From contig JAKAYA010000003.1 of NCBI GenBank assembly GCA_021826965.1, positions 1 through 64,000 of the forward strand: a DNA stretch of 64,000 bases, given 5' to 3'. Origin of the DNA: Nitrospirota bacterium. Its GTDB lineage: Bacteria > Nitrospirota > Leptospirillia > Leptospirillales > Leptospirillaceae. A program made the translations under genes and the position numbers. This document shows positions 30,638 to 36,354 of the stretch, in pieces (positions within the stretch are counted from its first letter, which is position 1; each line of letters starts with the position of its first letter). The notes under the pieces were generated by a model that saw only the letters and a list, made by a program, of their open reading frames with translations, was not told the DNA's origin and ran no database searches.

Positions 30638-31824
30638 ATGACAACAGTCAAGGAAGTGGCGAAAAATGGCCGTTCTGAAAGGCCGGTCCTGCATCTCACC
30701 CAAAAGACGCTGGAAACCTTGTCTCCCAAGGAAAAGCCCTACCTTGTCCGGGACGATGAGATCAAGGGATTGGTGGTGAAGGTCTACCCCACCGGAACGA
30801 TGACCTTTTTCTCGACGTGCTGACGGAGAAGCGTCACGACATGTTCAAGATCGGACAATGGCCCGACCTGAACATTGCTCAGGCGCGGGAGAAGGCCAAG
30901 AAAATGCGGGGGGACCTCGCCCAGGGGAAGAACCCGAAGGCGGAGAAGAAAGAGGGGATCGCTGTCGGGGAATTTTTTCAGGTCTATATGGACCGGCACG
31001 GAGCCCTCAAGAAATCGAAAGCGAACGATCTGAACAGCTTCACCAAATACCTGAAGCCTTGGGCCACTCATCCTCTCCAGGGAATCACGCGCTCGAAAGT
31101 GGAAACGCTCCATCGGACCATCGGAAAGGACATGCCGGTTCAGTCGAACAGGGTTCTTGCCCTCCTGTCCACCATGTTCTCCAAGGCGATGGTCTGGGGC
31201 TATTTCAAAGGAGAGAATCCGTGCCGGGGAATCCGGAAATTCCGGGAGGCCAGCCGGGACCGATTCCTTTCCGGGGAGGAACTGGTCCGGTTCTTTGAAT
31301 CCCTGGACCTGACCGAAAATCCGGCGTTCAAGGACTTCATCCTCCTGTCGTTGTTCACTGGGGCCAGAAAGTCGAATGTCCTGTCCATGCGATGGAAAGA
31401 TGTCGACTTCGAGCGGTCCGTCTGGAAGATCCCCGGAGAACTGAGAAAGAACGGAGATCCCATGCAGATTCCCCTTGGGACGGACGTTCTGGAGATCCTG
31501 AAACGGCGTCGTGCGGAAACTTCCTCCGTCTTCGTCCTTCCGGGACCGGGGGCGAAGGGCCATTACACGGAGCCCAAGAGGGCATGGGCGACCTTGCTCA
31601 AGCGAGCCAACCTGGAAGACCTCCGGATTCATGATCTGCGTCGGAGCATGGGGTCATGGATGACCATCGGGGGGGCCTCTCTTCCAATCGTCGGTAAGGC
31701 ATTGGGACACAAAACCTCTCAGGCGACTTCCATTTATGCGAGGCTGAACCTCGATCCCGTCCGGGCCGCGATGGATCAGGCGGTCGAGGCGATGAATAGA
31801 AACAGGAAGAAGACAACAGGATGA
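30638..31824 (+). pseudogene. Tyrosine integrase, single-base frameshift
   Basis: P4-type integrase. The first 60 codons (ATG 30638, good GGAGG) encode the start of the arm-binding domain (PYLVRDDEIKGLVVKVYPTG) and hit TGA. The rest of the same domain and the whole core continue from about 30812 in another frame (TEKRHDMFKIGQWPDLNIAQAR). One extra T in the run at 30807-30813 would restore a continuous protein. Catalytic residues are present: Arg in TGARKSN, HDLRR, His in LGHKTS and Tyr in SIYARL. Either a true mutation, a sequence error in a T run, or frameshifting; there is no classic slippery heptamer. Confidence 0.88.
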
Positions 31825-31835
31825 AAGGACACCCT

Positions 31836-32030
31836 ATGAAACCGATACTACATCCCCACTACATTACGGACGAGGCAGGAAAGAAAATGTCGGTCGTACT
31901 TTCCATTGATGAGTATGAATCCTTGCTTGAAGACATTGAAGATCTTGCCATTGTCGCGGAGAGACGGGACGAGCCCACGATATCCCACGAAGACCTTGAA
32001 GCCAAGCTGAGTGCCGATGGCCTCTTATAA
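31836..32030 (+). CDS. Type II antitoxin, RelB/Phd-like
   Basis: 64-residue acidic protein (VVLSIDEYESLLEDIEDLAIVAER..., then a flexible C-terminal segment). This resembles Phd/YefM/RelB antitoxins that neutralise RelE toxins and repress their own operon. ATG 31836 has AAAGGA six to seven bases upstream. It follows the integrase end by twelve bases and overlaps the toxin start. Confidence 0.78.
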   Translation: MKPILHPHYITDEAGKKMSVVLSIDEYESLLEDIEDLAIVAERRDEPTISHEDLEAKLSADGLL

Positions 32031-32277
32031 AGTCGTCTGGAAACGCAGTGCGGAAAAGGAACTGCGAAAACTTCCGAAAGAGATGATCCGTAAGTTATTG
32101 GACCAGGCATCCATGTTGAGCCGAGATCCGTTTCCGGCAGGAGTCAAAAAGCTTGTGAACGCGGAATCGGTCTATAGACTCCGGGTTGGTGCCTATCGAC
32201 TGATTTTCAGGGTAGAGCAGTCCAAATTGGTTATCGAAGTGATTCTCGATGGGCATCGTCGGGACGTTTATCGGTAA
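32017..32277 (+). CDS. RelE/ParE-type toxin
   Basis: 86 residues with the RelE fold signature: YKVVWKRSAEKELRKLP, KLVNAESVYRLRVGAYRLIFRV and a terminal VILDGHRRDVYR. RelE members cut mRNA in the ribosome; ParE relatives act on gyrase. The conserved RxGxYR and the C-terminal basic/tyrosine residues fit RelE. ATG 32017 lies inside the antitoxin gene (14-base overlap), so translation is coupled. The pair probably stabilised the element. Confidence 0.85.
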   Translation: MASYKVVWKRSAEKELRKLPKEMIRKLLDQASMLSRDPFPAGVKKLVNAESVYRLRVGAYRLIFRVEQSKLVIEVILDGHRRDVYR

Positions 32278-32375: not shown

Positions 32376-32813
32376 ATGATTTCTTCGGACATCCTGAGCC
32401 AAATCAAATCTATCGTTAAAGACAAACCTCCCCAAACGGTCGATGTATTCCTTGCCGAGCTGGAAATACTGGCCTCTCCCGAGGTTCGTGAAAGAATCGA
32501 TCGGGACTTTCGGGAATTGGACAAAGAAGACCGCCATACCGTCAAGATGCTTGAAAAGGACCCGTCCCCCCTTTCCCGACAAATTCTGGACGACAGGAAA
32601 AAAGGTCAAGGGAAAAAGAGCCTGACGAGAGGCCGTCCCCGCAATTTGGCCGAAGAGGTCACGGTTCTCAATGTTGTCACCCTTTACCAATCCTGTTTCT
32701 GTCTGCCTCGGAAAAGTCATGAGGATCCCTGCCTCAAAATTCTGCATCTTCTCCTGAACACCGAAGAATCTCCCTGGCATTCCTTCTTGAAGGCCATCTC
32801 GGACCTTTCCTAG
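32376..32813 (+). CDS. Unknown 145-residue protein ending at the IS border
   Basis: Hydrophilic, mostly helical protein (ISSDILSQIKSIVKDKPPQ..., RERIDRDFRELDKEDRH..., GQGKKSLTRGRPRNLAEE). No family recognised. AGGAGA lies 13 bases before the ATG. The stop codon TAG (32811-32813) is formed by the first bases of the insertion sequence, so the C-terminus may be cut short. It may have been an accessory or regulatory gene of the element. Confidence 0.5.
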   Translation: MISSDILSQIKSIVKDKPPQTVDVFLAELEILASPEVRERIDRDFRELDKEDRHTVKMLEKDPSPLSRQILDDRKKGQGKKSLTRGRPRNLAEEVTVLNVVTLYQSCFCLPRKSHEDPCLKILHLLLNTEESPWHSFLKAISDLS

Positions 32814-32826
32814 CTCTACAGCGACA

Positions 32827-33256
32827 TATACCCAAAGAACATGAATAACCCCGGAGCATTTTGAGCGATGGCCAAGTCAACTCGAAACAAAAAGAGGGAA
32901 AACGATCCTCTCCGGGCCATAAAAAACGGTTTTGGGGGGCATGGATGAGAGGGTTTCGGAGGGATCCCAGGCCTCGGCGGAGGTTTCAAGACGCAGGAGG
33001 GGGGCTCGAACCTGTCATGTGCGGCCGGGAAGAATGCGCGGACGGACCGGGAAGAATGCGCGGACGGAAAGGATCGGGCGGGGGAGGGCCTACCCCGTCC
33101 GGGGAACGTCATACTTCAAGCGGTTTTTCTTGTCCCGGGAGAGGAAGGAAATCCGGTTCCGGCGCTGATGGTAAGCAAGATGCTCAAGGACGGAGATTCC
33201 AGGGAAGGCGAGCCGGGACAGGACATCGACCACCAGGAGGTGGGCCTGAGGGAGGG
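32827..33256. other. Non-coding left end of the insertion sequence
   Basis: 430 bases between the left inverted repeat and the transposase stop, with no supported gene. It contains an exact 22-base tandem duplication (33025-33046 and 33047-33068). Confidence 0.5.
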
Positions 33257-35269
33257 TCAGAAGGACTTTTTTTTAAAATCGATCCGAAGGGACTGGAGAA
33301 AGAGATGGGCCAGGAAGACGTGGAGCATGTGACGGTGCCAGCCGGTCCAGGAGCGGTTCTCGTAATGCCCCATGCCGAGAAGGGACTTGCTCTCGAGGAG
33401 GGCGCGGGAGTGGGACCAGCGAAGGATGGAGACCTGGACCATCGTCTCGAGGGGGCAGTCTTCGGGGGCATTGCAGAGGACGTACTTGGTCTTCCCTTGC
33501 GCGTTCTGGGCCTCGGAGCGGAAGAGGAAGAGCCAGACGGGAGAGGGCGGATCCAGCGGCTCCTCCGGGACCAGGAAGACCCGGAGCCGGGAGACGAAGA
33601 CCCGTTCGACGCCAAAAGAGGCACTGGGACGGATGACCTCCGTCCAGGACGTCTGGCGCGCGAGCTCCTCCACGGAGACCGGGGTCCGGGAAAGCCGGGA
33701 GCCGGGTTTTCGTCCCCGGCCGGACCATTCCGGCATCTCCCAGGTGGGGCGCTCCGGAAGAACACGGATGTTGGAGCGGACCGAGGCGAAGTACGTGAGT
33801 CCGGAAGGAATGGCGTCGAGGAAGGACCTGTCCGAGCCCAGGCCGGCATCGACCCCGACCCAGGAGGCCGCGAGAGGATCGCTCCCGTGCGCCTTTTGGA
33901 GAAGCTCGAGGGCGATCTGGTTCTTGGTCCGGAAGGTTTCGGTCTCCGGCACGCCGGTCTTCTTGCGCCGCTCCGCGTGGTCGGCATCGTACCAGATCTC
34001 CGGGAGGTAAAGTCGGGCATCGAGAAAGGCGTAGCCCCGATCGGTCACGAGGCCCAGGAAGACCCCGGACTGGCAGTTGGCCACCTTGCCCAGATGACCG
34101 CAGTACTGGGGAGCGACTCCGACCGACTCGGCCCCTTTCTTGGGGAACTCGGAGGGATCGAGCGTCCACATGGGCGGAGTCTGCGAGGTCTGGGGAGACA
34201 GAAGGAGACGCGCCTTCTTTTGGTAGATCCCTTTCAGGGCCTCGTCATCCACCAGGTAGCCGGAGACGAAGCGCTGAAGGTTCCGGACGCCTCCGCTCCC
34301 TTCCAGGGACAGGGCGATGGGTTCGATGCTCTTGCGGCCCAGATCGGACAGAAGACCCAGGGTGTAAAGATGGGAGTAGCGGCGCGTCTCCGATCTCCTG
34401 AAAACGGGAGCGAAGTCCTGGCAGAAGGTTTCGAGCGCCTGGGCGATCCTCTGGAGGTCCTGGTCTTCGAGGACCTCGCTCTTCTCGAGAAGGGCGGGGT
34501 CCACATGGTAGGACTCGGGAAGGACGATCCGGACCGGGGCGGGAGGGGGCGCCCCCTGGGGAGTCTTCGGCGCCTGGGGTTCCCTGGGAGGAGGAGGTGT
34601 CTTCCCCGTGCGGTCCCGCCGGACAACGGGCTTGGGAGGAGGCAGGAGGCCGGCCTGGATGCGGAAGTCCGGCGCCAGGGTATAGAGGTACACGTCCTTG
34701 ACCTTCCCGTGTCGGGCGTAATGCTTGGGACCCTTGCGCGTCCGGGAGAACCCCTTGCTCTGCCCCAGGCGGACGAAGCCGGCCGCCCGGTAGCTGGCTC
34801 CCGAGTGATGGACGGGATCGATGTAGCTCTCGACCAGCCAGGGGGCATAGCCGAACCGCTCTTCCCAGTCGGCGGGAAGACGGCGGAGCAGCTGCCCCAG
34901 GAGATGGGAGGCCAGGTATCGGATCCGGACGCCCGGCAGGATGAGAAATCGGCTGTTGTTGACGACCCGGTGCCGGAGGAGCTTCCGCTCCCCGGCACTC
35001 CAGCCGATATGGATGTCCCGGACCTCAAGGTGGGGAGCCGAGGCGGAAAAGGACAGGGCTCCCACGACCGTGTCCTTCACCCGCGCCAGGTACTTGATCT
35101 GGCGCCCGGGAAGCTTCTTGTACCCCAGGGGATGATGTTCCCGAACCGCTTGGTCCCAAAGGGCGGCCTCCTCCGATCCCGGATCCACCGGTTCGATCGT
35201 GATCGGGCCCAGACTCTCCAGGGTTCCCCAGAGGACGGGAGGGACGACAGAGGGGGCGGGTTGTTCCAA
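33257..35269 (-). CDS. Transposase: DUF4338/DruA-like N-terminus fused to IS701-type DDE domain
   Basis: 670 residues. The N-terminal ~220 residues match DUF4338 (DruA of the Druantia defence system): GYKKLPGRQIKYLARV, VVNNSRFLILPGVRIR, ASHLLGQLLRRLPADWEERFGY. A Pro-rich linker follows, then an IS701/DDE_5-like domain (~285-665). Probable catalytic Asp lies in MWTLDPSEFPKKG, Asp in GVDAGLGSDRSF and Glu in RALLESKSLLG. The core block SVGVAPQYCGHLGKVANCQ is family-typical. TTG at 35269 is chosen because AGGAGG lies five bases upstream; TTG 35287 is possible. The inverted repeats flank it, supporting its role as transposase. Confidence 0.85.
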   Translation of the reverse strand: MEQPAPSVVPPVLWGTLESLGPITIEPVDPGSEEAALWDQAVREHHPLGYKKLPGRQIKYLARVKDTVVGALSFSASAPHLEVRDIHIGWSAGERKLLRHRVVNNSRFLILPGVRIRYLASHLLGQLLRRLPADWEERFGYAPWLVESYIDPVHHSGASYRAAGFVRLGQSKGFSRTRKGPKHYARHGKVKDVYLYTLAPDFRIQAGLLPPPKPVVRRDRTGKTPPPPREPQAPKTPQGAPPPAPVRIVLPESYHVDPALLEKSEVLEDQDLQRIAQALETFCQDFAPVFRRSETRRYSHLYTLGLLSDLGRKSIEPIALSLEGSGGVRNLQRFVSGYLVDDEALKGIYQKKARLLLSPQTSQTPPMWTLDPSEFPKKGAESVGVAPQYCGHLGKVANCQSGVFLGLVTDRGYAFLDARLYLPEIWYDADHAERRKKTGVPETETFRTKNQIALELLQKAHGSDPLAASWVGVDAGLGSDRSFLDAIPSGLTYFASVRSNIRVLPERPTWEMPEWSGRGRKPGSRLSRTPVSVEELARQTSWTEVIRPSASFGVERVFVSRLRVFLVPEEPLDPPSPVWLFLFRSEAQNAQGKTKYVLCNAPEDCPLETMVQVSILRWSHSRALLESKSLLGMGHYENRSWTGWHRHMLHVFLAHLFLQSLRIDFKKKSF

Positions 35270-35389
35270 CGAATCCTCCTGTTCCAAACGGGTGAACCGT
35301 CAACAGGAGGCAGTGTAATCAAAAAAGAGGAACCTGTTTACCCCTCCCGACAAAAACGGGATAGGTGAAGCAGTGTCGCTGTAGAGCTA

Positions 35390-35671
35390 AGACACCGCCA
35401 CCCCAAGAAATCTTCCGACTGGATCAAGACAACTTACCTTCGGAGGGTCAGAGGTCGCGACTGGACCTTCACGGGAACAACGGGAGAAACATTGTATCAG
35501 GCCTCATCCACTCCCATCCGGCGGCATGTCAAGGTCAAAGGCGCGGCTCATCCGTTCGATCCCAAATGGACGGGCTACCTCAGAACCCGAAAGGAGTTCC
35601 TGAAGCTCAGGGGAGCGGGAGAGAATCTTTCCTTCTTCCCTATGGGCCAAGCCATCCGTCAGGTTTCCTGA
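35390..35671 (+). pseudogene. C-terminal remnant of a group II intron reverse transcriptase/maturase
   Basis: The frame is open from the IS border to TGA at 35669-35671. It reads KKSSDWIKTTYLRRV, then LYQASSTPIRRHVKVKGAAH, then PFDPKWTGYLRTR, matching the end of bacterial intron-encoded proteins (typically TPIKRHVKI...NPYDPEWE...YF). The reverse-transcriptase domains and the 5' half of the intron are absent from both sides of the IS. It is followed at the expected distance by intron domain V. Confidence 0.8.
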
Positions 35672-35719
35672 ACGCGGGGAATAACCGGGTCCGGAGGAAT
35701 CCGGGCCTTCGAATGGCGT

Positions 35720-35794
35720 GAGCCGGATGCGGTGAAAGTCGCATGTCCGGTTCTTGGGGGGCGGGGGAGCGGTGACGCTCTCCTGCTACCCGAC
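35720..35794 (+). ncRNA. Group II intron domains V and VI (3' remnant)
   Basis: A 34-base domain V at 35720-35753 begins GAGCCGGATGCGGTGAAAGT and closes with GTCCGGTTC: the outer stem GAGCCGGAT/GTCCGGTTC and a GAAA-type cap are intact. A domain VI-like hairpin follows (GAGCG/CGCTC around GTGA, about 35767-35780) with a downstream CTACCCGAC end. The 3' splice boundary is probably near 35794. With no 5' domains here it cannot self-splice. Confidence 0.85.
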
Positions 35795-36278: not shown

Positions 36279-36330
36279 TGGTGGAGCTGAGGGGGATCGA
36301 ACCCCTGACCTCAAGACTGCCAGTCTTGCG
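36279..36330. repeat. attR: 52-bp repeat within tRNA-Ala
   Basis: Perfect match to 30361-30412; the match stops at 36331, where the complete tRNA continues with its D arm. Confidence 0.92.
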
Positions 36331-36354
36331 CGCTCCCAACTGCGCCACAGCCCC
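36279..36354 (-). tRNA. tRNA-Ala (anticodon GGC), CCA encoded
   Basis: 76 bases on the minus strand. Acceptor GGGGCTG pairs with CAGCTCC (one G-T), D arm GCGC/GCGC, anticodon arm CAAGA-CTGGCAG-TCTTG giving GGC, T arm AGGGG-TTCGATC-CCCCT, and a genomic ACCA end. The 3' 52 bases recur at 30361-30412 as the att repeat. The element's right end preserves the complete gene. A good promoter lies upstream (36391-36419). Confidence 0.97.

Follow-up and report, generated by a model that had tools for sequence, protein, structure and literature searches.

What does a domain that Pfam names after an anti-phage protein do in a transposase? The question is raised by an open reading frame at 33257..35287, on the reverse strand of the 64,000-nucleotide stretch of DNA analysed here (the window), which starts at a TTG codon and encodes a protein of 676 residues. 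A preliminary reading made from the letters alone (the sequence-only reading) had described a DruA module and an IS701-like transposase joined in one protein; matches to Pfam and NCBIfam models confirm both halves, and the length of 670 aa that it gave is corrected to 676 aa.

An extended IS701 transposase and its element

The Pfam model DruA (PF14236) matches residues 28-154 of the protein (E = 8e-24, 84.7 bits, above the cut-off of 27), Pfam DDE_5 matches residues 291-550 (E = 7e-52) and the NCBIfam IS701 model NF033540 matches residues 285-667, covering model positions 1-362 of 363 (E = 3e-83, 280 bits, cut-off 150). Structure prediction, which the sequence-only reading had proposed for both domains, gives a GNAT-fold N-terminus and a Tn5-like transposase. 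In the AF2 model of the full-length protein, the folded Mom/DruA-like domain occupies residues about 19-205 (34673..35233, reverse strand; its limits are consistent with the Pfam match and the alignments). It is followed by a low-confidence linker of residues about 206-272 (34472..34672, reverse strand; pLDDT <50 at 209-272), which is probably disordered, and then by the DDE transposase, residues 273-676 (33260..34471, reverse strand), which is identified by NF033540, Foldseek and alignment; the best Foldseek matches of the full-length model are the Tn5 transposase structures 4dm0/1muh. The IS701 part lacks nothing when the N-terminal domain is set aside, so this domain is an addition to an IS701 transposase. 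It has the appearance of a nucleic-acid-related module, as had been supposed, and is distinct from the IS701 DNA-binding domain, a candidate that we rejected because the IS701 model has its first match at residue 285 and needs no part of the N-terminus to be complete. Between the window protein and its relative at locus L035, the domain is better conserved than the transposase (67% against 59% identity; dN 0.26 against 0.36), and selection has therefore maintained it.

Perfect 16-bp inverted repeats (TAGCTCTACAGCGACA and TGTCGCTGTAGAGCTA) are present at 32811-32826 and 35374-35389, the ends from which the sequence-only reading had concluded that the locus is a transposon. The terminus YACTACAGCGA, whose form in the window is CTCTACAGCGACA, is common to ten IS701-DruA elements, and exact 4-bp NTAR duplications surround relatives of the element (TTAG at L064 and at L071, ATAA at L073, ATAG at L074). 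On these grounds of sequence we take the inverted repeat proper to be 13 bp, at 32814-32826 (forward strand; the right end in coding orientation) and 35374-35386 (reverse strand; the left end), with the outer 3 bp belonging to the target site. The target duplication in the window is then 4 bp and imperfect, with CTAG at 32810-32813 on the left and CTAA at 35387-35390 on the right. The insertion lies where an ORF of 145 aa (32376-32813) has its stop codon, inside the CTAG flank, and the element codes for the fusion protein alone, with no second gene inside. The likeness to the IS701 family consists of a complete DDE transposase, a length of about 2.6 kb, short terminal repeats and the 4-bp NTAR-type duplication seen in relatives; the window protein differs from the family by about 280 extra N-terminal residues, comprising the GNAT/Mom-like domain and the linker, and by the absence of the DDE glutamate.

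Alignment with 13 relatives reveals the latter difference. The first two residues of the DDE triad, D377 and D480, are kept in the window transposase, whereas residue 627, a glutamate within an R-W-(S/P)-I-E motif in 13/13 relatives, is a serine in the window, where the sequence reads RWSHSR, with HS for IE (codon at 33407..33409, reverse strand). We take this glutamate to be that of the DDE triad because it is spaced as in R-x3-E-x6-K, the Tn5-type motif of the IS4/Tn5 group. Because it has been replaced, the window copy, the one full copy of the element in the genome, is probably immobile: as judged by sequence, a relic that is a member of IS701 by descent and has kept its putative modification domain. 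The claim that the repeats prove a transposon is fair where the lineage is concerned, with the reservation that the window copy is without its catalytic glutamate. Towards its 3' end, the transposase gene contains an A8 run (33265-33285). In the window the frame ends directly behind this run, whereas L035 continues for ~30 residues; a homopolymer slip or a frameshift site at the run is possible.

Several features adjoin the insertion. A RelE/ParE-like toxin-type ORF of 88 aa (32011-32277, forward strand) and a tyrosine-recombinase-like integrase ORF (30817-31824, forward strand) were recognized by reading. Just downstream of the IS, Rfam RF00029 (63 bits) identifies a group II intron 3' end, the domain V region, at 35718-35794 (forward strand), preceded by sequence that resembles a decayed intron protein, and Rfam also places a tRNA gene at 36282-36354 (reverse strand). 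Since the integrase ORF and the tRNA gene bracket the IS region, they suggest an integrated island around it.

Kinship of the N-terminal domain to phage Mu Mom

The sequence-only reading had described DruA as having no assigned biochemical role. The fold of DUF4338, however, is not unknown: a paper of 2024 that reports it from DndF names it a GNAT domain (PMC10853773), and our comparisons tie it specifically to Mom of phage Mu. According to work on jumbo phages, Mom is a GNAT by which adenine in DNA is acylated at N6 (PMC7824862). Aligning a profile of 14 transposon domains with a profile of 11 phage Mom proteins in hhalign gave an E-value of 4e-10 and a score of 69.8, compared with at most 22.3 over 100 Mom alignments with shuffled columns, 19.9 for a generic GNAT profile and about 14 for three transposase profiles. 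PHROG 1384, 'Mom-like DNA modification protein', matches 12/14 members of the transposon alignment (best 3.5e-8) and Pfam Mom (PF25680) matches 8/14 (best 1.3e-5), at scores that for the first member are 17.7 bits, under the cut-off of 27.1. A stand-alone IS66-associated protein likewise gives a weak Pfam Mom match, and in the Pfam scan the full-length window protein was unmatched at the PF25680 cut-off.

Structure comparison points the same way. The AF2 model of a homologous domain (L064/L017) has a pLDDT of 92.3, and its best Foldseek match among 350,542 PDB chains is Mu Mom (8bv8, E = 7e-8), followed by another GNAT at 1.9e-5; in a BFVD search a phage Mom stands at rank 4. The TM-score to Mom is moderate, 0.61, at 15% identity. 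With the full-length window model, which is of lower confidence, Mom is absent from the best 50 PDB matches listed and generic GNATs are present, so the structure-based match to Mom rests on the homologue. When the PDB was searched by sequence, neither the window protein nor the domain profile returned anything useful; only structure comparison succeeded. The transposon domain and Mom are also alike in being basic, with net charges per 100 aa of +6.8 and +5.6; generic GNATs have +1.3. In fold the domain is a GNAT, and its kinship is specifically to Mom of phage Mu.

The profile alignment places H58, R111, S124, D149 and Y159 of Mom opposite H21, R82, S96, D126 and Y135 of the domain, which are H52, R113, S127, D157 and Y166 in the window protein and are all kept there. 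Two otherwise common positions deviate in the window domain (Y22 to P and N139 to G), and in the domain tree it sits on a longer terminal branch than its nearest relatives do. Beyond the GNAT fold, the equivalent H/R/S/D/Y residues and the basic character, the transposon domain shares with Mom that it is carried by a transposing element, phage Mu in the case of Mom. It differs in its low identity (about 15-20%), in scoring below the Pfam Mom cut-off, in possessing an RDxxIGW motif absent from Mom and in having an IS transposase as its fusion partner or encoded alongside it. The DndF-fused DUF4338/GNAT domain (PMC10853773) is a further parallel, likened here by its description: it is the same Pfam domain, N-terminally fused in a DNA-targeting system, but its context is a defence ATPase instead of a transposase.

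Association with several transposon families

The fusion is not an isolated case, as a wider survey shows. A genome scan confirmed at least 554 relatives in GTDB representatives, a census biased to canonical sequences by its 5-member query alignment, the 14-domain alignment being too divergent for the scan; PF14236 itself is present in 20/198 genomes of the phylum. We observed that 86 of 100 distinct transposon-type DruA domains are fused to or adjoin a transposase, compared with 0/30 control GNAT loci drawn from the same and related genomes. Naming the transposase families with NCBIfam, we found IS66 genes adjoining 33 of the 100 domains, fusion to an IS701 transposase in 17, an ISAs1 transposase fused or adjoining in 13, ISKra4 adjoining 7 and fusion to an IS4/Tn5-type transposase in 6, as well as adjoining IS1182-like (9) and IS701_3-like (1) transposases, the last two assignments being below the model cut-offs. 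For the remaining 14 domains, several of them on short contigs, there was no transposase within reach.

In several of these elements the domain gene lies within the terminal repeats. In IS66 elements it is placed between tnpB and tnpC, and Desulfoferrobacter suflitae contains two identical 3571-bp IS66 copies whose 21-bp repeats enclose it; in an ISKra4 element with the domain gene the repeats are 22 bp long and 8 bp (GATAACTT) are duplicated exactly. Fusions of the same architecture recur in several phyla, in genomes independent of one another and with terminal repeats that match, which is the outcome of the survey of fusions and their termini that had been suggested at the outset. At least six unrelated DDE transposon families have the domain as a recurring accessory, present either as a fusion or as a gene within the element. 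In the domain tree we count nine partner changes for seven partner types, and since each partner mostly corresponds to one clade or a few, the module has on several occasions moved from one transposon family to another. The IS families concerned are already known; what is new here is the unrecognised, DNA-modification-like module common to them. In the literature that we covered, which takes in few of the subscription journals, we found no paper linking DUF4338 to insertion sequences or to Mom.

Two more DruA-domain fusions were seen in the genome of the window (L004, G000:C51:90737-91228, and L005, G000:C39:6635-7102), both with IS4/Tn5-type transposases as partners. On the Thiodictyon plasmid pTs485 (L160, 4339-10324), a DUF4338 gene, an integrase gene and IS91 and IS4 transposase genes are flanked by two DUF2235-annotated pieces, as if a composite insertion had split one gene.

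A candidate DNA-modifying function and the relation to Druantia

From the fold, the specific kinship to Mom, the conservation of Mom's key positions and the recurrence of the module, we lean towards the view that the domain modifies DNA, as a Mom-homologous acyltransferase carried by an IS701-family insertion sequence. It would transfer an acyl group from acyl-CoA to DNA bases while tethered by a flexible linker to the transposase; in the stand-alone form the tether would be to an N-terminal extension of its own. Since three families have the domain joined to the transposase and others encode it within the element, the DNA so marked would, by analogy with Mu, be that handled by the transposase, most likely the transposon ends or transposition intermediates. 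The mark might protect these from host restriction, as Mom does for Mu DNA, or might tune transposition. Proteins, tRNA and small molecules are GNAT substrates too, and a Mom-like fold with Mom-like residues leaves the substrate unfixed.

A catalytically idle GNAT fold could instead help the transposase to hold the ends, as a supplementary module for DNA binding or target selection; other transposases do carry added DNA-binding modules, the domain is basic and the window version varies at a few otherwise common positions. However, the serine, histidine, arginine and tyrosine equivalent to those of Mom are among the most conserved positions of the 100 distinct domains (H21 in 97/97, R82 in 100/100, S96 in 98/100 and Y135 in 98), together with E122 (100/100) and D126, which is D or E. 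That S124 is essential in Mom is supported by the title of PDB entry 8bv8, which names an 'inactive mutant S124A', and the conservation of the equivalent residues argues for an enzyme over an idle scaffold. End binding, moreover, would already be provided, since the IS4/Tn5 fusions retain their Tnp_DNA_bind domain and the IS701 part is complete. We therefore consider an idle module unlikely.

A shade more doubtful still, in our judgement, is an enzyme that acylates a protein, be it the transposase or a host factor, or an RNA, and thereby regulates transposition. For most GNATs the substrate is an amine on a protein or a small molecule, and the next structural matches after Mom are generic acetyltransferases; the kinship is nevertheless specific to the DNA-modifying Mom branch, and the stand-alone versions ride in unrelated insertion sequences with transposases of different families, which makes a common protein substrate less likely.

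The sequence-only reading had called the domain Druantia-like: it does belong to the Pfam DruA family, but the Druantia DruA models do not recognize it. The PADLOC models (PDLC00001/2) score genuine DruA proteins (L007-L009) at E = 1e-82 to 1e-90 and transposon-type proteins at 1e-3 or not at all; the window protein matched 0 PADLOC families, and the element contains no other Druantia gene. Pfam 'DruA' therefore takes in two groups, and the window domain is to be regarded as a relative of Druantia DruA and not as a member. Druantia DruA shares with the transposon domains the Pfam family (PF14236), the RD motif and the conserved tyrosine. It is longer (about 380-700 aa), and stands beside helicase or other defence genes. 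The conserved histidine, the NLAS motif and the TFVD motif are missing from it, and direct comparison detects no similarity to Mom (profile E = 0.14; a PHROG scan likewise gave nothing). Its profile does align with that of the transposon domains (E = 2.8e-10), so these form the bridge between Mom and DruA, the sole link obtained between the two. That a true Druantia DruA was captured by the transposon and still acts in host anti-phage defence, as the shared Pfam name and the alignment of the two profiles might suggest, is very improbable in view of the PADLOC results, the missing Druantia genes and the motifs that Druantia DruA lacks. Least probable of all is a passive passenger or one-genome assembly artefact, for which the single full copy and its missing glutamate might speak: either is rejected for the family by the homologous fusions with matching repeats elsewhere, and by a constraint on the domain at least equal to that on the transposase.

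More tentatively, and with less confidence than we attach to DNA modification itself, we propose that these elements may constitute an unrecognised and widespread class of insertion sequences, spanning at least six DDE families and equipped with a self-encoded DNA-modifying acyltransferase, and that Druantia DruA may be a diverged cousin with altered active-site residues, acting on DNA as a reader or as a writer of another kind. Simple transposons were thought to require little beyond a transposase; if the proposal is true, base modification would be a self-encoded function of many of them, and DruA, the namesake of the Druantia defence system, would gain a chemical hypothesis that is directly testable. 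A review (PMC12904381) gives methylation for Druantia and refers to the phage protein Druad1. Many transposon proteins go under the Pfam name 'Druantia protein DruA', and annotation-based counts of Druantia may be inflated as a result. At two loci with Druantia-type DruA genes, L008 and L009, the gene is directly followed by a NurA-like ORF, recognized by reading, a defence arrangement that is unusual for Druantia.
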